Source: Allobosea lupini (GTDB taxonomy: Bacteria; Pseudomonadota; Alphaproteobacteria; Rhizobiales; Beijerinckiaceae). From it: a stretch of 64,000 nt of DNA. The position numbers and the translations under genes are program-made. The notes below the pieces were generated by a model. The model made no database searches, had not been told where the DNA came from, and saw nothing but the letters and a program-made list of their open reading frames with translations. Location: positions 434,001 through 498,000 of the forward strand of contig NZ_FOAN01000005.1 in NCBI RefSeq assembly GCF_900109525.1, read 5' to 3'. This document shows, piece after piece, positions 2,940 to 43,530 of the stretch (its first letter is position 1; the number at the start of each line of letters is the position of its first letter).

Positions 2940-4004
2940 TCAAGGCTTGAACTCCACCTTGGAGATCGGCGCGATGACGTCGTTGTAGACCGTGCCGCAG
3001 CGCGCGCCGCAGCGCTTGACGAAGCCAGGCAGCACCGTGCTCTGCATGATCTGCCGCACCAGCGCCTTGTCGGCCTCGGTCGCCTTGACCTCGGTCATCG
3101 GCTTGGCGGCGAGCGAGTGGATCTTGCAGGCGTCCTTTGCCCCGATATTGCAGTCGATGCCATCGCGCGTCGCGGCGTCGCCGAGCGTCCAAAGCGCATC
3201 GGTCATGTCGGCGAAGGTCTTCTCCAGCAGGCCCTTGGTGCCGGCATCGAGCTTGTTCCACCAGCCGAGGTTGACCATGTAGCCGGCGACCGCCCAGGAG
3301 AGCGGCAGGTCGGAGATGTGGCTCGCCACTTCCGGCCAGCGCGCTGCCGCGCCCGAACCCGTGCCGGTGACGGCACAGTCGACGACACCGCGTTCCAAGG
3401 CACTGTAGACCTCCGGGAAGCCGATCGAGACCGGCTGGCCGCCGATGGTCTGGACGAGATCGACCAGCGAATTGCCGAAGGTGCGGATCTTGCGGCCCTT
3501 GAGATCGGACAGGCTGGCGAAGGGCTGGCGGCAGAACAGCACCTGCGCCGGGAACGGGTAGGTGACGACGAGGCGGGTGTTGAAGCGCTCGAGTTCCTTG
3601 TTGGCGACCGGCAACATCGCATCGGCGATCTTGCGGGCCATGCCGATGTCGGGGCTCAGGCCCGAAAGGTCGATGCCGTCTAGCAGCGGTACGTCGCCCG
3701 ACAATGTCGAGAGCGTGCCGGCGCCGATATCGACCTGACCGGAGCGGACGAGGCGGACGATCTCGTTGCCGCCGAGATTGCGCTCGCTGTGAGAGCTGAG
3801 CTGGACGGTGATCTGCCCGTTGGAGGCTTTCGGCAGGCCCTCGCGGAGAAACGGAACGTCGACGAGCGTGAACTGGGCGCTGGTCGGCAGCGGCTGCGTC
3901 ACCGCCGAGATGGTCTGCTTCGGGATCGGCGCCTGCGCGGACGCGACACCGGATGCGGCCAGTGCTGCAAGCAGCGCCGTGCCGGCCGTAATGCACTTGA
4001 TCAT
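2940..4004 (-). CDS. dctP: TRAP transporter solute-binding protein (DctP type)
   Basis: 354-residue periplasmic binding protein with a typical Sec signal peptide: MIK, then a hydrophobic stretch ending ASGVASAQA. The mature part resembles the DctP family: an RFNTRLV segment, then DLKGRKIRTFGN, where family members carry an arginine that binds the substrate carboxylate, and a VYSALERGVVD hinge motif. It should deliver an organic acid-like ligand to DctQM. The start at 4004 fits the signal peptide; an upstream in-frame extension would displace it. The 145 nt between lysR and this gene probably hold the operon promoter. Confidence 0.93.
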   Translation of the reverse strand: MIKCITAGTALLAALAASGVASAQAPIPKQTISAVTQPLPTSAQFTLVDVPFLREGLPKASNGQITVQLSSHSERNLGGNEIVRLVRSGQVDIGAGTLSTLSGDVPLLDGIDLSGLSPDIGMARKIADAMLPVANKELERFNTRLVVTYPFPAQVLFCRQPFASLSDLKGRKIRTFGNSLVDLVQTIGGQPVSIGFPEVYSALERGVVDCAVTGTGSGAAARWPEVASHISDLPLSWAVAGYMVNLGWWNKLDAGTKGLLEKTFADMTDALWTLGDAATRDGIDCNIGAKDACKIHSLAAKPMTEVKATEADKALVRQIMQSTVLPGFVKRCGARCGTVYNDVIAPISKVEFKP

Positions 4005-34358: not shown

Positions 34359-35207
34359 TCAGAATGGATGGCTTTGAGGCTGCTTGGCTGCGCGAATCTC
34401 GCTCGCGATCGGAAAACGGTTCACAGTGAGGGTGCTTCCCTCGCGACTGATAAAGCCGCTCTCCGCAAACGCATCCAGCCATCCGACCATTGGCCAGAAA
34501 CCCCATCTCGCGTGGAAAATGCGAGCGTTGCGGACGATGTCGTCGAAATGCTGAAGCGGCGGATCGAAGACGTCATGGTGTTGATGGTAGGCGCACGTAC
34601 CACCGAGAAAATATAGATCCAAGCCAACCTCGCGGGCTCGAAAGGCAAAATCGGTATCCTCGGCGCCATAGCCGGTGAAACCTTCGTCGAAGCCAGAAAT
34701 TCTGTCGAAAGCCTCAGCCGATATTCCGAAAGCGAGGGACCAGAACAAGCCGCTATTGGGTTCGGCCACCAAGCCAGCAGCGGGAAACCGCCGCGCGGGA
34801 TGGGGCATCCCTACCGCCCGCAGCGTGGCTTCGCACCATCGCCCGTCATTCGCGGCGCCTTCGGGAAGGTACTGGATCTCGGCGCAGATCAAGCCATCCT
34901 GAGAATTGACCGCGTCCGCCATCGCCGAGATCAGGTCGCTGCTCGGAATGCAGTCGACATCGAGGAAGAGCAGGGACGGCGAAGTAGCCCGAGCAGCGGC
35001 GAGGTTGCGGGCCTGCGCCAAAGGTAAGCCGTGGGTGGCATGTCGGATGACCCGGACAGGGAAATCCGCAACCGGACGTCCCACGGGCTCGTCGCTCATG
35101 TCCACGATGACCAGTTCGAGTGGTGGGATGGTACTGCGTCGCAGGCCCTCCACGAGGTTGCGCAGGTGCGCCACACGGTTCTTTACGATGGTGAGGACGC
35201 TGATCAC
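34359..35207 (-). CDS. Glycosyltransferase family 2
   Basis: 282-residue GT-A-fold transferase: ISVLTIVKNRVAHLRNLVEGL opens the domain, LLFLDVDCIPSSDL carries the DxD metal/nucleotide-sugar motif, and GFDEGFTGYGAEDTDFAFRAREVG is the acceptor-side ED motif. It starts with GTG overlapping the methyltransferase stop (GTGA). Last gene of an eight-gene minus-strand operon. No membrane segment, so it acts on a cytosolic or membrane-surface acceptor. Sugar donor unknown. Confidence 0.9.
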   Translation of the reverse strand: MISVLTIVKNRVAHLRNLVEGLRRSTIPPLELVIVDMSDEPVGRPVADFPVRVIRHATHGLPLAQARNLAAARATSPSLLFLDVDCIPSSDLISAMADAVNSQDGLICAEIQYLPEGAANDGRWCEATLRAVGMPHPARRFPAAGLVAEPNSGLFWSLAFGISAEAFDRISGFDEGFTGYGAEDTDFAFRAREVGLDLYFLGGTCAYHQHHDVFDPPLQHFDDIVRNARIFHARWGFWPMVGWLDAFAESGFISREGSTLTVNRFPIASEIRAAKQPQSHPF

Positions 35208-35794
35208 GATGGCCGCCTGCGCCAAAGGTCGAGCCGGTACATCGTCCGCCGCTCGTGCAGGACCGTCTCGACCTCTGACCCCAGAGCGCCATGCAGGGAC
35301 TCGACCGCGTCGTCGCCGCTCTGGGGATAGTCCGTCTCGCCGCTCCAGTGGACAAGCAGCAGATCCCCGGTCGGTGCAAGCAGATCGAGCAGTTTGCGGC
35401 CGGCGAGCGAAAGGTCGGTCTCGTCCCAATAATAGGCGACCTCTGAAAGGATGATCAGGTCGAAGGAGGTGCCAATTGGCGCTTCTCCGGGAAAGCTTAG
35501 GCGCGTGAGCTGGACGTGATTGTATCGCGCGCACCGGGCCCGCGCGGCACCGAGCGCCGTTTCGCTGACGTCTATCGCCAGCAACTCCTCGCAATGACCC
35601 GCCAGGCGCTCGGTCAGGACGCCGTTTGCGCAACCGATCTCCAGCGCTCGGCGAAACCTGCGTTCACCCAACGCATCCAAGGTGTGCTCGTACTTCGCCG
35701 TCTCGTATGGGCTCGTCTCAAAGTCCCACGGGTCGGGCGTGCCGGCGAACATCCGTTCGAAATACTCCGGCGGCAGGCTTTTAGCCGCGCGCAT
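35204..35794 (-). CDS. SAM-dependent methyltransferase, NodS-like
   Basis: 196-residue class I methyltransferase: SAM-binding loop ALEIGCANGVLTERLAGHC, acidic strand LLAIDVSETAL, LIILSEVAYYW. DPWDFETSPYETAKYEHTL at the N-terminus is the pattern of the NodS-like group, whose namesake N-methylates the free amine of a deacetylated chito-oligosaccharide. Immediately downstream of a PIG-L deacetylase with 14-nt overlap, so deacetylation followed by N-methylation of an amino sugar is an attractive reading. The ATG at 35794 has AAGGA upstream. Confidence 0.88.
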   Translation of the reverse strand: MRAAKSLPPEYFERMFAGTPDPWDFETSPYETAKYEHTLDALGERRFRRALEIGCANGVLTERLAGHCEELLAIDVSETALGAARARCARYNHVQLTRLSFPGEAPIGTSFDLIILSEVAYYWDETDLSLAGRKLLDLLAPTGDLLLVHWSGETDYPQSGDDAVESLHGALGSEVETVLHERRTMYRLDLWRRRPS

Positions 35795-36491
35795 CGGGAC
35801 CGATCCTTTCATAGAGCAGATCGGCCGCGGGCATCCGCTGCTTCGATGGCGAAAGCCGGAAACCCTCGCCGAACTGCGGCGTGATCTGACTGCGATGGGC
35901 GGCGAGCGCCGCGTTGCGCAGACCGAGCGGCATCGCTTGGGTCCGCCACGTGCGATAGCCTTGGCCTGGCGGTTTGGAGGCCCAGACCACGTATTCGAAG
36001 ACCGTGATCGGGCGGATAGCGCTGACGGCGACGGAGCATGCGAGCCGAAAGGCCGCCTCGTGGTCGCAATGGGGCTCGTGCATCGCCGTCACCGCGATCG
36101 CATCCACGCGGCTTTCGCGGCACAAGGCTGCCAGCCTTCGCCTTGAACGTTCGAAGCGGGGCTCGGCGGGCGCGTACGGTTGGGCATCCGGCCATTCCAG
36201 GAACATTGGAGGCGGGTGGCCGCGGCCGGTCAGTATCCGCATAGCCCGTGCCGCCTCGTGGCGACGGGCCGCAATGAGGCGGGCACGTGACGCGGAGCCG
36301 TCATGGGGATGCGAGCCGACGCCATCCGTGAGGATGACCACATGCGCGAGCGCTCCGCGGGAGGCCGCATGCGCAATCAGTGCAGCACAGCCGAGCGTTT
36401 CGTCATCGGCATGAGGCGCAATCACGAGCCAGCGAGCCGATGCCATCTGGCTCGTCGCGAAGGCTCGCGCCGATAGGCTTCGCGTCACCAC
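35781..36491 (-). CDS. PIG-L family deacetylase
   Basis: 236-residue zinc-dependent N-deacetylase of the LmbE/PIG-L family (includes MshB and BshB). Metal motif PHADDETLGC near residue 26 and HCDHEAAF near residue 142 are both intact. Family members remove acetyl groups from GlcNAc-containing small molecules or lipids. Starts at GTG overlapping the stop of the upstream gene; a second GTG one codon later is equally possible. Operon partners are four glycosyltransferases and a NodS-like methyltransferase. Confidence 0.9.
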   Translation of the reverse strand: MVTRSLSARAFATSQMASARWLVIAPHADDETLGCAALIAHAASRGALAHVVILTDGVGSHPHDGSASRARLIAARRHEAARAMRILTGRGHPPPMFLEWPDAQPYAPAEPRFERSRRRLAALCRESRVDAIAVTAMHEPHCDHEAAFRLACSVAVSAIRPITVFEYVVWASKPPGQGYRTWRTQAMPLGLRNAALAAHRSQITPQFGEGFRLSPSKQRMPAADLLYERIGPDARG

Positions 36492-37636
36492 AGGCGGTCG
36501 CCCTCGCCCCAGACGTCATGGTCGAGCCAGGCGATGGCGGCCTGGTCGCGCGCGTAATCCGGGCCAGCCTGACGCAGATACAGGCTGAGGTCCCGGGTGA
36601 TCTTGTCGATCCGCTGGCCATCGAAGGCGCTGCGCGTGCCGACGATCCGGGCCGAGAGCTCCATAACGTCGAGCGCCGCGCGCTCGACGACGCCGCGGGT
36701 CATGCGCACGAAGTCCGGGGCATCCGAGGCATCGTCCGCAGCACGCTGCGCTGCCTCCCGCACCCAGAGATAGGCCGTTCGGGTCGCGGCCACCGCTTCG
36801 GCGAATTTGAGCCGCTGCAGCGGATCGTTGCGCGCGGTCTGCGACATGGCGAGACGTGTTTCTGCGAGCAGGCCCTCGATGCCACCCGATTGGACCGCGA
36901 GAAAGCGCCATGCACCCGCAGTGAAGCGCGGCTCGGCCGTATAGTCTCCAGGATCGCCCAGGAACTGGTCTTCGCTCGGTTGCATGCCCGTGAGATCGTA
37001 ACTTCCGCTGCCGGTCGCACGCATGCCTCGCACGCGCCATCCTGAGAGATCGGTGCGGCCCGCATCGTCCGCAGGGACCACGACGAGCTGCGTATCGCCG
37101 TCCTCCCGTCGTGCGGTGATGATGGCGAAGGCCAAGCCACCCGCCCCTGTCGCAAAGGCTTTGGATCCGGTCAGGAGCCAGTCCGTAACCTCGCGACGGA
37201 CGGTAACACCCGGGGGCGGCTCGGTTGCCCAGACGCCGTAGAACGCTCCGTCGTCGAGCGCCGATGCCAGCCTCGCCCTCTGCTCATCGGAGCCAAGCCA
37301 TGTGAAAAGCTTGAGCGCATTTACATGGCCCTCGAAGATCCGTCCCAAGCTCAGATCGGCGCGACCGATGATCCGGAGCACATCGAGCAACGCCGCGTTC
37401 TCGGCCCGTGAGTCCGCGAAGCTTACACCGCCGCTCGCCGGAGGGGCGAACACGCGCTGCAAACCGGAGCGGCGCAGGATCTCGACACTGTCCAGCGGAA
37501 AGAGCGGGGCGGCATCGTAACGCGCGCCACATTCGACTAGCCGCGAGAACACAGATTGGACGACCGGCCTGAAATCCGGCTGCGGACCACTGGACGCCGC
37601 GCCATCCTCTCGTCGCACTCGACTACGTTGATGCAC
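36485..37636 (-). CDS. Acyl-CoA dehydrogenase-fold protein of unknown activity
   Basis: 383 residues with the three-domain acyl-CoA dehydrogenase layout. The FAD-contacting stretch reads YGVWATEPPPGVTVRREVTDWLLTGSKAFATGAGGLAFAII. The C-terminal helical domain ends in RDLSLYLRQAGPDYARDQAA, and I do not see the usual EGTxEI-type catalytic glutamate there. It may therefore be an oxygenase-like or amine-oxidising relative rather than a beta-oxidation enzyme. Starts with GTG at 37636, with GGGAGG 9 nt upstream, overlapping the preceding glycosyltransferase by 14 nt. Confidence 0.85.
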   Translation of the reverse strand: MHQRSRVRREDGAASSGPQPDFRPVVQSVFSRLVECGARYDAAPLFPLDSVEILRRSGLQRVFAPPASGGVSFADSRAENAALLDVLRIIGRADLSLGRIFEGHVNALKLFTWLGSDEQRARLASALDDGAFYGVWATEPPPGVTVRREVTDWLLTGSKAFATGAGGLAFAIITARREDGDTQLVVVPADDAGRTDLSGWRVRGMRATGSGSYDLTGMQPSEDQFLGDPGDYTAEPRFTAGAWRFLAVQSGGIEGLLAETRLAMSQTARNDPLQRLKFAEAVAATRTAYLWVREAAQRAADDASDAPDFVRMTRGVVERAALDVMELSARIVGTRSAFDGQRIDKITRDLSLYLRQAGPDYARDQAAIAWLDHDVWGEGDRLW

Positions 37637-38681
37637 GAGGCTTGCCCTCCCTGGCGATTGCGATGAGGAAATCGGCTGCGTGGCGCGCGCCGTCCGGGTC
37701 GTGCAGCCTTGCCGCGCCATCAGGGTCGATGTCATTTGCGGCGGCGATCAGTCCCGGCCAATCCGAGGCGTCCGGCCAGCTTTCGAGCACGATCGCGACG
37801 CCGAGCGCGGCAAGACGCCGGGCCTTGGAGATCTGCTCATCGAAAGGCCGTGGCTCGGGAAGGCAGATGAAGCGGCTGCCCGTCGCTATCACCGCGCTGA
37901 CGAGACCATCCCCCGCCGCGCCGACGACGAGCCCGGCGCGCGCGATCTCGCTCCCGGCATCTTGGACCCAGCCGAGAAGCGAGAGATTGTCAGGACACGC
38001 CTTCGGCCGCGAGGCCGGTCCGATGACGCGCCATTGCTGCGAGGGCGTGGCACGGGCCGCCGCCGCGAGCGCATCGCCATCGCCGCCTGCGCCTCCGTTG
38101 CCGAAGACGGCAAGGATAGTGTCCCTTCGCCTTGGCTCGACCGATCGAGCTGAAACCGAAAGCCCGGAGCAGTAGCGGGTCTTGGATCGTACCCAGTCAG
38201 GCATGCCGGGTTCGTCAAGTTCGCGGTGAAAGGGCGCAAGGACAGCGCGGGCTCCGCGGAAGGCGTCGAGGTGGGCGGGATCGTCGCGCAAGCCGCCGAG
38301 CCTGAAGTAGATGGTGGGCGTGGCAGCCAGTCGCGCTAGCATCGCCATCTCGACCGAAACGTCCACGACGAGCAATGCAGGTCGTTCGCGCTCAATCCAA
38401 TCCGTCAGCCGAGCAGCGCGTTTGCGAATGCCTTCGTGATGCACGGGCGCGTAATGCAAGGCGCGCGGCCGATCGCCCATATGATCGTGTCCGTCGAACC
38501 CCAAGCCCTCGGCAAGGCGGTCATCGGGCAGGTCGAGGCAAGGGAGACCCTCGGTGCGACCTGCGAGCCCGGTGCCGATCAAGGTAATCTGTGCCAGCGG
38601 AGCCGAACGGGCTATCGCCAGGGCCCGTTGTCGATGCCCATCTCCGTGATGATGGACGTAGTAGCCGATGCCACCACTCAC
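37623..38681 (-). CDS. Glycosyltransferase, MurG-like GT-B fold
   Basis: 352-residue protein beginning SGGIGYYVHHHGDGHRQRALAIA, an HHHGxGH-type N-terminal motif found in GT28-like transferases. The C-terminal half has LAVFGNGGAGGDG, LSLLGWVQD and GLVVGAAGDGLVSAVIATGSRFICLPEPRPFDEQ, which correspond to the nucleotide-sugar binding site of MurG/GtfB-type enzymes. GTG start overlaps the upstream GT2 stop by 4 nt. Probably transfers a UDP- or dTDP-sugar. The acceptor is unknown. Confidence 0.85.
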   Translation of the reverse strand: MSGGIGYYVHHHGDGHRQRALAIARSAPLAQITLIGTGLAGRTEGLPCLDLPDDRLAEGLGFDGHDHMGDRPRALHYAPVHHEGIRKRAARLTDWIERERPALLVVDVSVEMAMLARLAATPTIYFRLGGLRDDPAHLDAFRGARAVLAPFHRELDEPGMPDWVRSKTRYCSGLSVSARSVEPRRRDTILAVFGNGGAGGDGDALAAAARATPSQQWRVIGPASRPKACPDNLSLLGWVQDAGSEIARAGLVVGAAGDGLVSAVIATGSRFICLPEPRPFDEQISKARRLAALGVAIVLESWPDASDWPGLIAAANDIDPDGAARLHDPDGARHAADFLIAIAREGKPRAST

Positions 38682-39685
38682 CGTATGGTGCCCGCGTCGG
38701 AGCCGCTCGCCCCGACCCAATCGATCTCGGCGAGCACCGCGTCATGGGGCATCGGAGGAAGCGCGTGCTCAGCCGCAATCAAGCGGCTAGCCGAGCAAAT
38801 TGCCCGCCGCGTCTCGCGACGCCACTTCGCACGCTCGCGCCAGTGGCGGAGCGCCGGCACCATCTCGGCAGCGCCGCCGGAGGCTGCATCAATCATGCGC
38901 CTCATCGTCTCGGCCATGCCATGAGTCGCACGGCCATCCAAACGCGCCGAGACCCGCGTCCAGACGTCAAGGGGGTGAACGAGGCGACCACCGCCGACAA
39001 TGGCGGCCTCGACGAGAGCCCGATCCTCGCCCGATGCCATAAGGGGAACGCCGCCTGAGCGGCGGTACATCTCGCACGTGATCGCGAGACTGCCGCCGGT
39101 GTGGTCGCCATGCCGAGGAGGAGGATCCCAGGGACACGGGTCGATCTCATCCTCGATCGCCCTCACGGCAATCCAGTAACGATCCCATAGCTCCCGACTT
39201 GCCGCGATGCCGGGGGGTATCCGCTCGTCCTCGTCGAGAACCAGCCGCCCACCGACGATGTCAGCCCCGGCCGCGATGGCGGCCAGATTGGCCGATACCC
39301 AGTTCGCCGGCGGTCGAGCGTCGGCATCGGTCGTGATCAGTACGCCGTCAGCTGGCACGACGCGCTTCCCGCCGGCCGCCAAGGCGGACGCGCGCGCCGA
39401 CCCAGCATGCGCCAGGTCAGGCGGAAACTCCACCACATCGACGCTGAGACGGAGTCGGCCGCGATAGCGTTCCCCGACGGCCGCAACGACTTCGTTCGAG
39501 GCGTCCGTGGTGTTGTTGATGCAGATCGCGACGGGGACCGACCCTTCGACATCCTGTTCGGCCAGCGCCCGGAGCAGGCGAGGCAATCGCTCTTCCTCGT
39601 TGCGAGCCGGAACGCAGATGCAGAACGGAGCGCCGGCCGTTGGGTCCGCGGCCGCCGGCGCTCGCTCCTTGGCGCGCGACCTCAT
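38678..39685 (-). CDS. Glycosyltransferase family 2
   Basis: 335 residues. CICVPARNEEERLPRLLRALAEQ is the GT2 opening, VLITTDADARPPANWV the DxD site, and HTGGSLAITCEMYRRSGGVPLMASGEDRALVE the acceptor region. Starts at ATG 2 nt after the catalase stop, so translation is likely coupled. The last 80 residues are rich in Arg and Ala and form a helical tail. Confidence 0.88.
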   Translation of the reverse strand: MRSRAKERAPAAADPTAGAPFCICVPARNEEERLPRLLRALAEQDVEGSVPVAICINNTTDASNEVVAAVGERYRGRLRLSVDVVEFPPDLAHAGSARASALAAGGKRVVPADGVLITTDADARPPANWVSANLAAIAAGADIVGGRLVLDEDERIPPGIAASRELWDRYWIAVRAIEDEIDPCPWDPPPRHGDHTGGSLAITCEMYRRSGGVPLMASGEDRALVEAAIVGGGRLVHPLDVWTRVSARLDGRATHGMAETMRRMIDAASGGAAEMVPALRHWRERAKWRRETRRAICSASRLIAAEHALPPMPHDAVLAEIDWVGASGSDAGTIR

Positions 39686-39687
39686 CG

Positions 39688-41784
39688 TCAGGCCAGGATG
39701 CGAACACTGGGCTCCCGGGCCCACTGTCGCGTTCGGGCCGGAGCGAGGAAGGCGTCCTTCGCCTTGCCGAGTGCGACGATGCCGTCGTCGGGCTCGACGC
39801 CAGCCTTGTCGAGCAGCGGCTTGGCTTCCGGGCTGTAACCGATCGCCTTCAGGTGAGCGAAGGCGTCCTTCGTGAAGTCGATCGCGGCGCCTTCCTTCAT
39901 CAGCATTGCGCAACCTTCCTCGGAAAGGATGATGGCGACCGCGTCGAAGATCACGGACGGCGTACCGGCGAGCTGCCCGTCGGCCTTAAGCAGCTTTCCG
40001 TCCTTGAGTTTCACGCCGCCGATCTTGGGCGCGACGATCTTCACGGTGCCGCCTTCGCCTTCGACCGACGACTTGACCGCCGTGACCAAAGCTCCGTCGG
40101 CGCCGTCCGAAACCAGGATCCCGACCGAGCGCCCCTTCAGGGTCTCTGGATACTTGCCGACGATCCGGAGGGCCGGGGACGGCTCCATGTCGATGGCTTC
40201 CACTGCGGCATCCGCCGCCTTCGGGAGCTTCATGGCCAGACCTTCGGCCACGCGCTGAGCCAACGTCTCGTCAACGTTGAGGAGATTGGCCATCACCCGG
40301 TTGCGGACATGTTCGAGCGAAACCTTGGAGAGCTCGAACACGAGCGCGCTGGCCAGATGGGCCTGCTCGATCTCGCTTTGGGAGCGGAAGAACAGTCGCG
40401 CATGGCTATAGTGGTCGGCGAAGCTTTCCGATCGCAGCCGGACCTTTTGCGCCTCGACGGGGACAGCTGTCGTCCGGAATCCCCCGGTGGGATCCTCGCG
40501 AGGGCCCCCGTCTTCGCCCGCTTGTGCAAGGCTATTGGGCTCGTAATTCGCGCGGCCCTTGAACACCTGAGTTTGCATCTGTCCGTCGCGCTGGAAGTTC
40601 TGGAACGGGCAACCTTTCGCCCTGTTGATCGGCAATTGGTGGAAATTCACGGTGCCGAGCCGCGAGAGCTGGGTGTCCTGATAGGAAAACAGGCGACCTT
40701 GCAGCAACGGATCCTCCGAGACGTCGATGCCCGGCGGCATGTTGGTTGGCAAAAACGCCGATTGCTCGGTCTCGGCGAAGAAGTTGTCGGGATTTCGGTT
40801 CAGCACCATCCGGCCGATTACGCGGATCGGCACGAGCTCTTCCGGGATCACCTTCGTCGCGTCGAGGATGTCAAAGGGGAGTGCGTCGGCCTCTTTCTGG
40901 CTAAGCAACTGCACGCCGAACTCCCATTCCGGGAAGTCGCCTTTTTCGATCGCCTCGAACAGATCGCGGCGGTGATAGTCCGGGTCGGCGCCGGCGATCT
41001 TCACGGCCTCGTCCCAGCACGTCGACTGGGTCCCGAGCTTCGGGCGCCAATGGAATTTGACGAAGGTCGGCTCGTCGTCGTCGTTGAGCAGGCGGAACGT
41101 ATTGACGCCGAAGCCCTCGATCATCCGCAGCGAGCGCGGGATCGTCCGGTCCGACATCGCCCACATGATCATGTGGGTCGATTCCGGCATCAGGCCGACG
41201 AAATCCCAGAAAGTGTCGTGGGCGCTGGCGGCCTGGGGGTAGCCGCGGTCCGCCTCCATCTTCACCGCATGGATCAGGTCGGGAAACTTGATTGCGTCCT
41301 GGATGAAAAACACCGGGATATTGTTGCCGACGAGATCCCAGTTGCCCTCCTTCGTATAAAACTTGACCGCGAATCCGCGCACGTCACGCGGGGTGTCGAC
41401 CGAACCGGCGCCACCGGCAACCGTCGAGAAGCGGGTGAACACCTCGGTCTTGACGCCGACCTCGGTGAGGATCTTGGCTCGCGAGAACTCTGCCAGGGAC
41501 TCGGTGAGCTCGAAGAAGCCGTGAGCCGCCGAACCGCGGGCGTGGACGATCCGCTCGGGGATCCGTTCGTGGTCGAAGTGCTGGATCTTTTCCCGCAGCA
41601 CGAAGTCTTCAAGCAGCGTCGGCCCGCGAGTGCCCGCCTTGAGCGAATTCTGATTGTCGCTCACCGGGGTGCCGTGATTGGTCGTGATCCGCGTGTCCGG
41701 CGTCGAGGCCGTTTGGTGCAACTCGCCGCCATTGCCGGGTTTGGCGTCGATCTTCTTGGTGTCGCTTTTTGGAGAAGAGGCCAT
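39688..41784 (-). CDS. katE: Large-subunit catalase (KatE/HPII type)
   Basis: 698-residue clade 2 heme catalase that decomposes hydrogen peroxide. Catalytic His is in IVHARGSAAHGFF, the essential Asn in LVGNNIPVFF and the proximal heme Tyr in LFSYQDTQLSRLG. After about residue 550 a flavodoxin-like/class I glutaminase-like domain (GRSVGILVSDGADG) is present, as in E. coli HPII. AAGGAG lies 7 nt upstream of the ATG. Embedded in an operon of glycosyltransferases rather than alone, which is unusual. Large catalases are often under general-stress control. Confidence 0.95.
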   Translation of the reverse strand: MASSPKSDTKKIDAKPGNGGELHQTASTPDTRITTNHGTPVSDNQNSLKAGTRGPTLLEDFVLREKIQHFDHERIPERIVHARGSAAHGFFELTESLAEFSRAKILTEVGVKTEVFTRFSTVAGGAGSVDTPRDVRGFAVKFYTKEGNWDLVGNNIPVFFIQDAIKFPDLIHAVKMEADRGYPQAASAHDTFWDFVGLMPESTHMIMWAMSDRTIPRSLRMIEGFGVNTFRLLNDDDEPTFVKFHWRPKLGTQSTCWDEAVKIAGADPDYHRRDLFEAIEKGDFPEWEFGVQLLSQKEADALPFDILDATKVIPEELVPIRVIGRMVLNRNPDNFFAETEQSAFLPTNMPPGIDVSEDPLLQGRLFSYQDTQLSRLGTVNFHQLPINRAKGCPFQNFQRDGQMQTQVFKGRANYEPNSLAQAGEDGGPREDPTGGFRTTAVPVEAQKVRLRSESFADHYSHARLFFRSQSEIEQAHLASALVFELSKVSLEHVRNRVMANLLNVDETLAQRVAEGLAMKLPKAADAAVEAIDMEPSPALRIVGKYPETLKGRSVGILVSDGADGALVTAVKSSVEGEGGTVKIVAPKIGGVKLKDGKLLKADGQLAGTPSVIFDAVAIILSEEGCAMLMKEGAAIDFTKDAFAHLKAIGYSPEAKPLLDKAGVEPDDGIVALGKAKDAFLAPARTRQWAREPSVRILA

Positions 41785-41815
41785 GAGAGGGCTCCTTGCG
41801 TGAGCTGGGAATGGT

Positions 41816-42892
41816 TCAGGCGGCGAACTTCGTTCGCGGTGCGGCTGCGATGCGATCGGCGTAGAGCGCCTCGTACTCATCGATCATCCGCGCGGCGTCG
41901 CATCGCTTCACCGCGTGTTCGCGGCAGGCGTGTCGGTCGAGCCGCTCGGCAGCCAGCGCCGCCCGAGACAAGGAATCCGGATCGTCGGGAGTGGCCAGCA
42001 CGCCGGTCGCGGCATTCAGCAATTCCGGGATTGCTCCCCGGCCGAAGGCTGCTACGGGAACACCGCAAGCCAGCGCTTCGGCGACGACGAGGCCGTAAGG
42101 CTCTTCCCAGCAGGGCGTACACAGGAAGGCCCGAGCGCCGCCGATGATGCCGGCGAGTTCGGAATGGGCAAGATGGCCCAGATATCTGACGCGCTCGTCG
42201 AGGCGTGGTGCGACCTCGCGATCGAAATAGTCCTGATCGGAGATCGGGCCGGCGATCAGCAACGTCGCTCCACTCAGCGCGGCGGCCGCGATGGCATGAT
42301 GGAGCCCTTTTTCGGGAACGATCCGACCGTACCAGATCCAATAGGGCTGCACCGCCGGGTCGGAGCGGAAGGCGAAGCGCTCGAGATCAATACCGTTCAA
42401 GACGACACGCTCGATCGGCGCGACCTTGTTCCATTTGCGGCGGATCGACTCGGAGACGGCGACGAACGTCGCGTTCGGGGCATTGCACAACCGAACGCCA
42501 CTTTCGAGCCACGCGAATGGTGGCGTGTGAAGCGTCGTGACGACCGGCATGGGGAGCGCATCGGCCATGGCGACGGGGAGGTAGTGCAACGAGTTGTTAT
42601 GGATCAGATCGAAGTTCCGGTGCCTCAATGCATTCATCAGGGACAGGTAGGCGTGGTGCTCCTGGAAAAAGACCTTGTCGGGGGCCTCGTCGCATCCGAC
42701 CTGCGTGAGCGATGTTTCGTCACAGATGGCTTCAACACAGGCGTCCGGCTCTGATCCCGACGATGCGAAGACTGTCACGTCATGACCGCGGCGGCGGAGC
42801 GCTCCTTGCAGCATGGAGGTGTGCATTTCCAACCCGCCGGCGAATGGCTCGCGGATGGCGTGCTTGAGGTGAGCGATGATCCCGATACGCAA
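41816..42892 (-). CDS. Glycosyltransferase family 4
   Basis: 358-residue GT-B retaining transferase. N-terminal domain MRIGIIAHLKHAIREPFAGGLEMHTSML carries the glycine loop, VVLNGIDLERF starts the donor domain, YGRIVPEKGLHHAI and PCWEEPYGLVVAEALACGVPVAAFGRGAIPEL form the nucleotide-sugar site with the family EX7E pattern. First gene of the eight-gene minus-strand operon, 31 nt before the catalase gene. Overall resembles the MshA/BshA branch of GT4 in layout, but the exact donor cannot be read. Confidence 0.9.
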   Translation of the reverse strand: MRIGIIAHLKHAIREPFAGGLEMHTSMLQGALRRRGHDVTVFASSGSEPDACVEAICDETSLTQVGCDEAPDKVFFQEHHAYLSLMNALRHRNFDLIHNNSLHYLPVAMADALPMPVVTTLHTPPFAWLESGVRLCNAPNATFVAVSESIRRKWNKVAPIERVVLNGIDLERFAFRSDPAVQPYWIWYGRIVPEKGLHHAIAAAALSGATLLIAGPISDQDYFDREVAPRLDERVRYLGHLAHSELAGIIGGARAFLCTPCWEEPYGLVVAEALACGVPVAAFGRGAIPELLNAATGVLATPDDPDSLSRAALAAERLDRHACREHAVKRCDAARMIDEYEALYADRIAAAPRTKFAA

Positions 42893-43003: not shown

Positions 43004-43029
43004 AACTAGTTTCGAGCGTCTTTAGTTCC
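43004..43029 (-). promoter_or_regulatory. Candidate EcfG-type promoter of the glycosyltransferase-catalase operon
   Basis: On the minus strand: GGAAC, 17 nt, AGTT. The -35 element and spacing match the general-stress consensus and the -10 element has one mismatch (AGTT for CGTT). It lies about 110 nt upstream of the GT4 start. Catalase genes are frequent members of this regulon. Confidence 0.4.
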
Positions 43030-43075: not shown

Positions 43076-43530
43076 TTATTTTTCGGCAAGATTGTCTTTT
43101 ATTATTGCCGAAGCTCGCGGCCTCAGTGCGCGCCCGAATTCTATCACGGGAACGATCGCGTCCCTCTCTTGATCGGACGGGCTACCCGCCTCGCTTGACA
43201 GGTCGCTGGATACGATGACCGCGCCTTTGGCGGACGTGCTCATCGCACGCCGACGGCCGTGGAACGCATCGAGGCTCGGGCGGCGGCCGACGCTGATGAG
43301 CGTGGTTGAGCCAAGCTCGTCTTCGAAAAGGGCTAGCAGGGATGCCTGGCTGTCCTCATCCAGGGCCGAGATCGCTTCGTCCATAACGACGATGTCCGGG
43401 CGCTGGACGAGCAGATGGCAAGGCCGAGCGCTGACGCTCGCGTCCGGACCCGAGGCGGTCCCACGGTGCGGTCTCGTCGAGACGAGAAGCGATGTTTCCG
43501 TCGGTCAGTGACCATTCCTGGCGTTGGGCA
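43076..43530 (-). pseudogene. Remnant of an ABC transporter ATPase (SbmA/YddA-like exporter), frameshifted
   Basis: The minus strand encodes VQRPDIVVMDEAISALDEDSQASLL, a Walker B/D-loop, then TTLISVGRRPSLDAFHGRR, an H-loop region where His is replaced by Arg (canonical IGHR). Upstream, RLDETAPWDRLGSGRERQRSA resembles the signature region but lies in another frame, so at least one frameshift separates them. N-terminal membrane domain and Walker A are missing. The fragment is truncated where an IS110-type remnant begins near 43500. Confidence 0.7.

Follow-up and report, generated by a model that had tools for sequence, protein, structure and literature searches.

The 64-kb window analyzed here, a 64,000-nucleotide stretch of an Allobosea lupini contig, carries an eight-gene minus-strand operon encoding a GT4-type glycosyltransferase (GT4), a large catalase (KatE), two soluble family-2 glycosyltransferases (GT2a and GT2b), a MurG-like GT-B glycosyltransferase, a flavoenzyme of the acyl-CoA dehydrogenase (ACAD) fold, a PIG-L family de-N-acetylase, and a NodS-like S-adenosylmethionine (SAM) methyltransferase. 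We find that GT2a, the ACAD-fold protein, PIG-L, and the NodS-like enzyme form the conserved core of this operon (hereafter, the quartet), and that GT4, the MurG-like protein, and GT2b are an alphaproteobacterial extension of it. That the quartet is one functional unit is, in our view, close to certain. Our preferred reading, to which we assign a probability of roughly 55%, is that the operon is stress-regulated and cytosolic, and makes a small N-methylated amino-sugar glycoside or oligosaccharide that is kept in the cell as a protectant.

Conservation of the Operon and Its Four-Gene Core

An earlier interpretation of the window, made from the letters of the DNA (the sequence-only reading), treated conservation of the neighboring genes in related genomes as decisive. 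The ACAD-fold gene, counted at E <1e-150, is present in 5 of 36 genomes sampled from the same genus, all five of which keep the seven non-catalase genes in order, with the catalase present in three of the five. The gene order is beyond chance, and although its distribution is patchy, the cluster is intact wherever it occurs; the neighbors are indeed kept in relatives. We also scanned public genomes for relatives of the ACAD-fold protein, obtaining 569, the best 80 of which were kept for neighborhood comparison; among named records, the closest are those of Bosea sp. Root381 and its relatives. ACAD, PIG-L, and NodS-like matches adjoin in all of these 80 loci, where GT4, GT2a, and the MurG-like gene usually precede the core, GT2b usually follows NodS, and the seven non-catalase genes keep their order in most relatives. 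The sequence-only reading had taken GT4 plus PIG-L as the core of the pathway, and this part of it does not hold: GT4 is absent from most loci outside one alphaproteobacterial group, and in many of those loci the quartet core contains only one glycosyltransferase.

The quartet was seen in Pseudomonadota, Deinococcota, Actinomycetota, and Cyanobacteriota, the last from a single Nostoc record. Carriers, which include plasmid records as well as further genomes, comprise Deinococcus sp. NW-56, Nostoc, Komagataeibacter, Bradyrhizobium, and Sulfitobacter, together with Methylobacterium, Acinetobacter baumannii, Legionella lytica, Pandoraea, and the actinomycetes Streptomyces, Embleya, and Kitasatospora. 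The complete eight-gene version was found in Novosphingobium, and a reduced form (ACAD-PIG-L-NodS, with GT2a on the opposite strand) in some Sphingomonas genomes and one Caulobacter genome. There are exceptions to the pattern: Roseomonas has the trio with GT2a not nearby; in Deinococcus radiodurans, the ACAD, PIG-L, and NodS genes are interrupted by a helicase gene, and the stretch lacks GT2a; only NodS and GT2a are seen in Paraburkholderia; D. proteolyticus has NodS and GT2a together and an ACAD match elsewhere on the plasmid; and Cupriavidus has ACAD, NodS, and GT2a without PIG-L. Rubrobacter likewise has ACAD, NodS, and GT2a with no PIG-L match near, and a CE4 polysaccharide deacetylase gene (PF01522, 92 bits) lies just upstream. 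This second type of deacetylase in place of PIG-L supports a de-N-acetylation step.

We note several further arrangements at these loci. A second PIG-L gene stands beside the quartet in two genomes of one family (L153 6023-6787 and L156 8245-9120), and in genome G434 (L146 3803-6320, plus strand), the ACAD-NodS pair comes immediately after two other genes, one for a further ACAD-family protein and one for a luciferase-like monooxygenase. In D. radiodurans (L120 1196-3532, plus strand), ACAD is preceded in the same open frame by an N-terminal stretch of 400 residues that the GT2a profile does not recognize, that has no Pfam match, and that by eye resembles a glycoside hydrolase. An apparent GT2a-ACAD fusion in Methylobacterium aquaticum (L030) was dropped, as the stretch between the domains looks out of frame. 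Finally, the A. baumannii record NZ_CP077849.1 (L121), listed as a plasmid, is 3.66 Mb long and looks like a chromosome or cointegrate.

Co-occurrence in Pseudomonadota Genomes

A single draw of 299 Pseudomonadota genomes, including that of A. lupini, was searched with four profiles; the resulting counts, as well as that of a class-level ACAD search (3 of 240 genomes, again including that of A. lupini), are lower bounds, as only part of the first-look candidates was scored. The NodS profile at E ≤1e-20 matched 36 places in 31 genomes, and the neighborhoods of 31 of these places were examined, the other five being the window itself and the places in G407, G453, G554, and G533:C81, which are open frames of 753 to 1,218 residues classed by length alone as trifunctional (GT2/SAM-methyltransferase/polysaccharide deacetylase) proteins. 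The 31 genomes divide into 22 of quartet type, including that of A. lupini, and nine of nod or trifunctional type. In all 21 quartet-type genomes other than that of A. lupini, an ACAD gene lies within 4.5 kb of the NodS-like gene (in G551, it belongs to a second NodS copy, the first standing alone), while none of the nine nod-type or trifunctional loci examined has an ACAD, PIG-L, or GT2a match near NodS.

The remaining profiles follow the same division. PIG-L at E ≤1e-35 is found in 21 of 22 quartet-type genomes, the exception being G535, versus 3 of 277 others (G557, G499, and G378; Fisher 4.7e-28), and at the preset E ≤1e-20 in 21/22 versus 19/277 (Fisher 2.9e-20). For GT2a, the corresponding counts are 20/22 versus 1/277 (G430) at E ≤1e-44, where G422 has no match and G336 a 95-bit local copy, and 21/22 versus 25/277 at the preset E ≤1e-20. 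Both stricter cutoffs were set post hoc after viewing the scores, that for PIG-L at a score gap. ACAD at E ≤1e-35 is found in 15 of 22 quartet-type genomes and in 1 of the others (G557); the seven quartet-type genomes that it misses belong to other classes, and in them a broader profile gives ACAD at the locus with 160-200 bits. In G557, quartet-type PIG-L and ACAD matches adjoin (G557:C12:15654-16861) without a NodS match, and since no NodS match passed, this genome was excluded from the quartet-type count.

Three quartet-type genomes have PIG-L away from the locus, and in the first two named here the quartet is split into two pairs. In G434, NodS and ACAD are on one contig, with PIG-L and GT2a ~1 kb apart on another; in G321, two pairs are separated by ~280 kb, with 2.8 kb between PIG-L and GT2a; and in G422, PIG-L is not at the locus but ~11 kb away. 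Joint retention of the genes by a genome whose operon has broken up is strong evidence of one pathway.

Features of the Individual Enzymes

Pfam, NCBIfam, and fold searches bear out the sequence-only reading in its family assignments for all eight proteins. In PIG-L, the metal motif P-H-x-D-D-E and H-x-D-H are invariant in seven aligned rows. Its nearest named relative of solved structure is the archaeal diacetylchitobiose deacetylase, a PIG-L family member in which the metal motif is kept (8bgn, 80.1 bits with the PIG-L profile); other matches are 3wl4 (81.6 bits, labelled uncharacterized), BshB1 (55.3 bits), and MshB (38.6 bits). The structures nearest to the NodS-like methyltransferase are PDB 4isc, followed by NodS (3ofj), and its score with the NodS equivalog NF041650 is 85.5 of 300 bits, short of the cutoff. 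In GT2a, T-D-x-D and E-D are invariant in 12 aligned rows, D-x-D and E-D being motifs of GT2 glycosyltransferases. The MurG-like protein has no Pfam or NCBIfam match, and its AlphaFold2 model (pLDDT 86.2) retrieves GT-B enzymes in Foldseek, with CalG1 the best match (E 3.5e-15) and MurG (7d1i) at 3.1e-13. Hydrophobic peaks (KD19) do not exceed 1.73 in any of the eight proteins (maxima of 1.42 for GT2a and 1.30 for GT2b), i.e., no membrane segment is predicted in any of them.

The ACAD-fold protein, which models mostly well from residue 46 on, requires closer consideration. We take the catalytic-base positions of this fold to be MCAD E376 and IVD E254, as carried over by sequence alignment. Across 127 rows, near-identical relatives included, the first of these positions is A/P/S/G/H/N/C (5 gaps) and the second W/A/L/I/V/G (2 gaps), and neither is ever D or E. 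As there is no acid at either position, the protein is not a normal acyl-CoA dehydrogenase. Its profile scores 82.7 bits with DszC versus 74.3 bits with the best labelled ACAD, and also matches KijD3, DnmZ, and nitrososynthase. Both profile and VIA-align rank DszC, TdsC, and MsuC first, only a little ahead of dehydrogenases, and among the Foldseek matches listed, the first is labelled putative acyl-CoA dehydrogenase. The protein seems slightly nearer to flavin monooxygenases than to dehydrogenases. It nevertheless differs from DszC/TdsC/MsuC and KijD3/DnmZ, with ~20% identity to them and with its own invariant Gln (122 of 122 filled rows) and nearly invariant Trp (122 of 125). Oxygenation would be its likeliest reaction, at what we judge to be even odds; no reductase gene is present in the operon.

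Stress Context and Promoter

Of 115 loci, 41 have a large catalase in their flanks, a number that includes many close relatives and several catalase fragments. The catalase takes five different positions: within the cluster, and upstream or downstream of it on either the same or the other strand. In the 299-genome draw, it is found at only 2 of 21 quartet loci. Catalase as an integral part of the pathway is weakened by this absence from most loci and by its shifting position, and it is best described as a recurrent, optional, and movable partner. For this reason, the oxidative stress protection proposed in the sequence-only reading is too narrow, although a link to stress as such stands. Ku and LigD matches are found at 7 and 8 of the 115 loci, respectively, counts that include the locus of the query itself. 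Elsewhere, the quartet lies behind MalQ-TreY-GlgX (G565 and G517), is preceded by otsB and GH65 in L. lytica, is near a sucrose-phosphate synthase/phosphatase-like gene (G422 and G489), and in Kitasatospora has ferritin-like, spore photoproduct lyase, and ppk2 genes as neighbors. In sphingomonad loci such as L029, a Crp/Fnr-family regulator is also seen near the catalase or the cluster; 37 of the 115 loci have a match to it, in some cases with only 24-35% identity.

An EcfG-like promoter motif, defined following PMC6599016 as GGAAC-N17-20-GTT upstream of the first gene, precedes GT4 in six of seven Bosea-clade loci (the window and L037-L041, not L042), as counted from direct GT4 starts. The A. 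lupini genome encodes NepR, and the motif suggests putative EcfG control of the Bosea-clade operon. Beyond this clade, three loci were checked, with the motif present in L049 and not in L044 or L068. Across all loci, it occurs in 8 of 89 upstream regions, compared to a mean of 1.18 (maximum 5) in shuffles and 1.41 (maximum 5) in random windows; overlapping genes were dropped for this count, so that the first gene is misassigned in the window, L037, and some others, and ten regions begin at MurG. On the reverse strand, the motif is at least as common (11 of 89), as if the divergent neighbors were also stress genes. A scan for sigma-70 promoters and terminators gave nothing exceeding its shuffles.

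Ku, catalases, and glycogen/trehalose genes are described as EcfG-dependent in Sphingomonas melonis in PMC6599016, which also lists EcfG-dependent glycosyltransferases 3505-3508 and the exopolysaccharide gene 3509. We do not equate these five genes with the quartet, because the terms acyl-CoA, deacetylase, nodulation, and LmbE are absent from the main text of that paper. Similarly, the passages of PMC4636370 that list the Pseudomonas putida trehalose locus name no quartet gene.

Proposed Pathway and Alternative Explanations

Taking these observations together, we infer substrates, order of steps, flavoenzyme reaction, product, and role of the product as follows. GT2a would transfer an N-acetylamino sugar, most simply GlcNAc, onto a soluble acceptor; PIG-L would strip the acetyl group; the NodS-like enzyme would methylate the freed amine; and the ACAD-fold flavoenzyme, working as a flavin monooxygenase of the two-component kind, may oxygenate the same or a neighboring nitrogen or carbon. 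Further sugars would be added in alphaproteobacteria by GT4, the MurG-like enzyme, and GT2b. The product would stay intracellular and protect against stress or desiccation, with catalase and the other stress genes as companions. Amino-sugar de-N-acetylation plus methylation is the part we consider quite probable, and the idea of joining deacetylation to NodS-like methylation, which the sequence-only reading had put forward, survives in outline, with PIG-L and the NodS-like enzyme both in the conserved quartet. The role as an intracellular stress protectant could equally well prove right or wrong.

It is unlikely, though a serious possibility, that the operon instead modifies the cell envelope, with a glycolipid, lipopolysaccharide, or capsule component being built at the inner membrane face by soluble glycosyltransferases and finished elsewhere. 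The four glycosyltransferases of the alphaproteobacterial version fit this explanation, yet the core quartet of many loci outside that group has a single one. There is a weak resemblance of GT4 to the lipid-glycosylating model NF053787 (49.6 of 480 bits) and of GT2a to the HpnB (26.9 of 379.25) and CruG (24.5 of 600) models, but the eight proteins include no transmembrane peak, flippase, polymerase, or acyltransferase, nor any Wzx/Wzy or ABC exporter for surface polysaccharide. In four Bosea-clade loci, GT4 is preceded by stretches that match an ABC transporter at its end; in the window, however, this transporter is a relic, and it is matched only in the Bosea clade. Consistent with the sequence-only reading, for which such an assignment would have been fatal, we found none of these genes assigned to a known surface polysaccharide locus in the annotated records or open-access literature examined. 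A secreted specialized metabolite, such as an antibiotic-like nitro or N-oxygenated amino sugar, strikes us as improbable: the relatives of the flavoenzyme include ACAD-fold N-oxygenases of amino sugars (KijD3, DnmZ, and nitrososynthase), and the MurG-like protein is nearest to natural-product glycosyltransferases, but none of the eight genes is for export, resistance, or a scaffold, and the unit is conserved across phyla with stress genes beside several loci.

Two better-known systems share parts of this chemistry. NodS and the trifunctional proteins have a homologous methyltransferase and combine the same three activities, and they branch inside the same methyltransferase tree, which would be in line with an N-methylated lipo-chitooligosaccharide signal resembling a Nod factor. 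We nevertheless consider such a signal very unlikely, given the low NodS equivalog score, the 0/9 count of ACAD or PIG-L at nod-type or trifunctional loci, and the composition of the operon itself. In Nod-factor loci, the membrane synthase NodC and the acyltransferase NodA stand beside NodS; neither is in the operon, where GT2a and GT2b lack a membrane peak and no acyltransferase is encoded. Mycothiol and bacillithiol pathways, likewise, have a GT4 and a PIG-L enzyme in one operon, which together with the catalase superficially recalls synthesis of a low-molecular-weight thiol or other redox cofactor. The sequence-only reading had rejected both products and was right to do so: no cysteine ligase is found among the eight proteins, GT4 lies outside the conserved core and scores 45.5 of 273.7 bits for BshA and 28.7 of 462.5 for MshA, and PIG-L matches BshB1 only weakly (42.8 of 182.5 bits), so a thiol product is highly implausible. 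We thus retain the intracellular N-methylated amino-sugar protectant as our preferred reading.

Possible Origin of the Nod-Factor Methyltransferase

The relationship to NodS was examined in a careful, unrooted tree of 68 methyltransferase rows, six of the 74 rows (close relatives of kept ones) being left out. The trifunctional proteins group with nod-type NodS in a single branch (99/96), placed among the quartet sequences within an enclosing 45-row branch (98/96). A quick tree makes a Rubrobacter sequence sister to this nod branch (90), a placement that the careful tree leaves open. If the root lies anywhere outside the nod branch, NodS is derived from a quartet-type enzyme, and this is the simpler reading in light of the wide distribution of the quartet. 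More tentatively, and at somewhat less than even odds, the quartet may be an ancient module, not described before, that moves by horizontal transfer and provides bacteria under stress with an amino-sugar protectant that is N-methylated and perhaps also N-oxygenated. On this view, the NodS of rhizobial Nod-factor synthesis was recruited from the methyltransferase of the module, and the Rubrobacter form (CE4 deacetylase, NodS-like enzyme, GT2, and ACAD) would resemble an intermediate.

Operon Layout and Flanking Features

The operon runs from position 42892 down to 34359, exactly as the sequence-only reading had placed it, and the tight spacing described there is correct, with neighboring genes overlapping by up to ~32 nt or lying at most 31 nt apart (Table 1). 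Putative starts were picked by comparison with relatives for KatE (~41784), GT2a (39685), the MurG-like gene (~38678), ACAD (~37636), and GT2b (~35207), and the start codon of GT4 is TTG, identical in the Bosea-clade relatives compared. The catalase scores 934.8 bits with NF008422, under the 1102-bit cutoff. Homologues of the ABC-transporter relic are the stretches upstream of GT4 in L037-L040, and in a further relative (L025), a 604-residue open frame upstream of GT4 holds a part matching the relic. An Lrp/AsnC-type regulator is also encoded upstream of the cluster, and a peptide ABC-transporter operon downstream faces it. The A. lupini genome has a second PIG-L gene ~160 kb away (G000:C12:308844-309230), which scores 36 bits with the quartet profile.

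Table 1. Genes of the operon and associated upstream features, in window coordinates
Feature	Position	Strand	Evidence and remarks
EcfG-like promoter motif GGAAC-N18-GTT	43004..43029	-	137 nt upstream of the GT4 start
ABC-transporter C-terminal relic	43076..43384	-	homology to relatives; outside the pathway
GT4-type glycosyltransferase	41816..42892	-	PF13439/PF00534; alphaproteobacterial extension
Large-subunit HPII-type catalase (KatE)	39688..41784, open reading frame extendable to 41880	-	PF00199, 588.7 bits; movable accessory
GT2a, soluble family-2 glycosyltransferase	38678..39685	-	PF00535, 33.5 bits; quartet member
MurG-like GT-B glycosyltransferase	37623..38678	-	AlphaFold2 model and Foldseek; alphaproteobacterial extension
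ACAD-fold flavoenzyme without the acyl-CoA dehydrogenase catalytic base	36485..37636, open reading frame extendable to 37735	-	quartet member
PIG-L family de-N-acetylase	35781..36491	-	PF02585, 75.7 bits (cutoff 28.2); quartet member
NodS-like SAM methyltransferase	35204..35812	-	PF05401, 71.9 bits; quartet member
GT2b, soluble family-2 glycosyltransferase	34359..35207	-	PF00535, 45 bits; alphaproteobacterial extension

Conclusions

The unit described here is both smaller and far more widespread than the sequence-only reading could see. We found no paper on the quartet in open-access full text, a search whose coverage takes in few subscription journals. Some members of the further phyla that carry the quartet are known for radiation or desiccation tolerance. 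The unit is present in 21 of 298 sampled Pseudomonadota genomes besides that of A. lupini and in three other phyla, a distribution that points to a common stress metabolite for which the literature searched has no name. The analysis also gives one enzyme of Nod-factor synthesis a proposed ancestry that can be tested, and it singles out, within the ACAD-fold flavoenzymes, a subfamily annotated in the records as acyl-CoA dehydrogenase.

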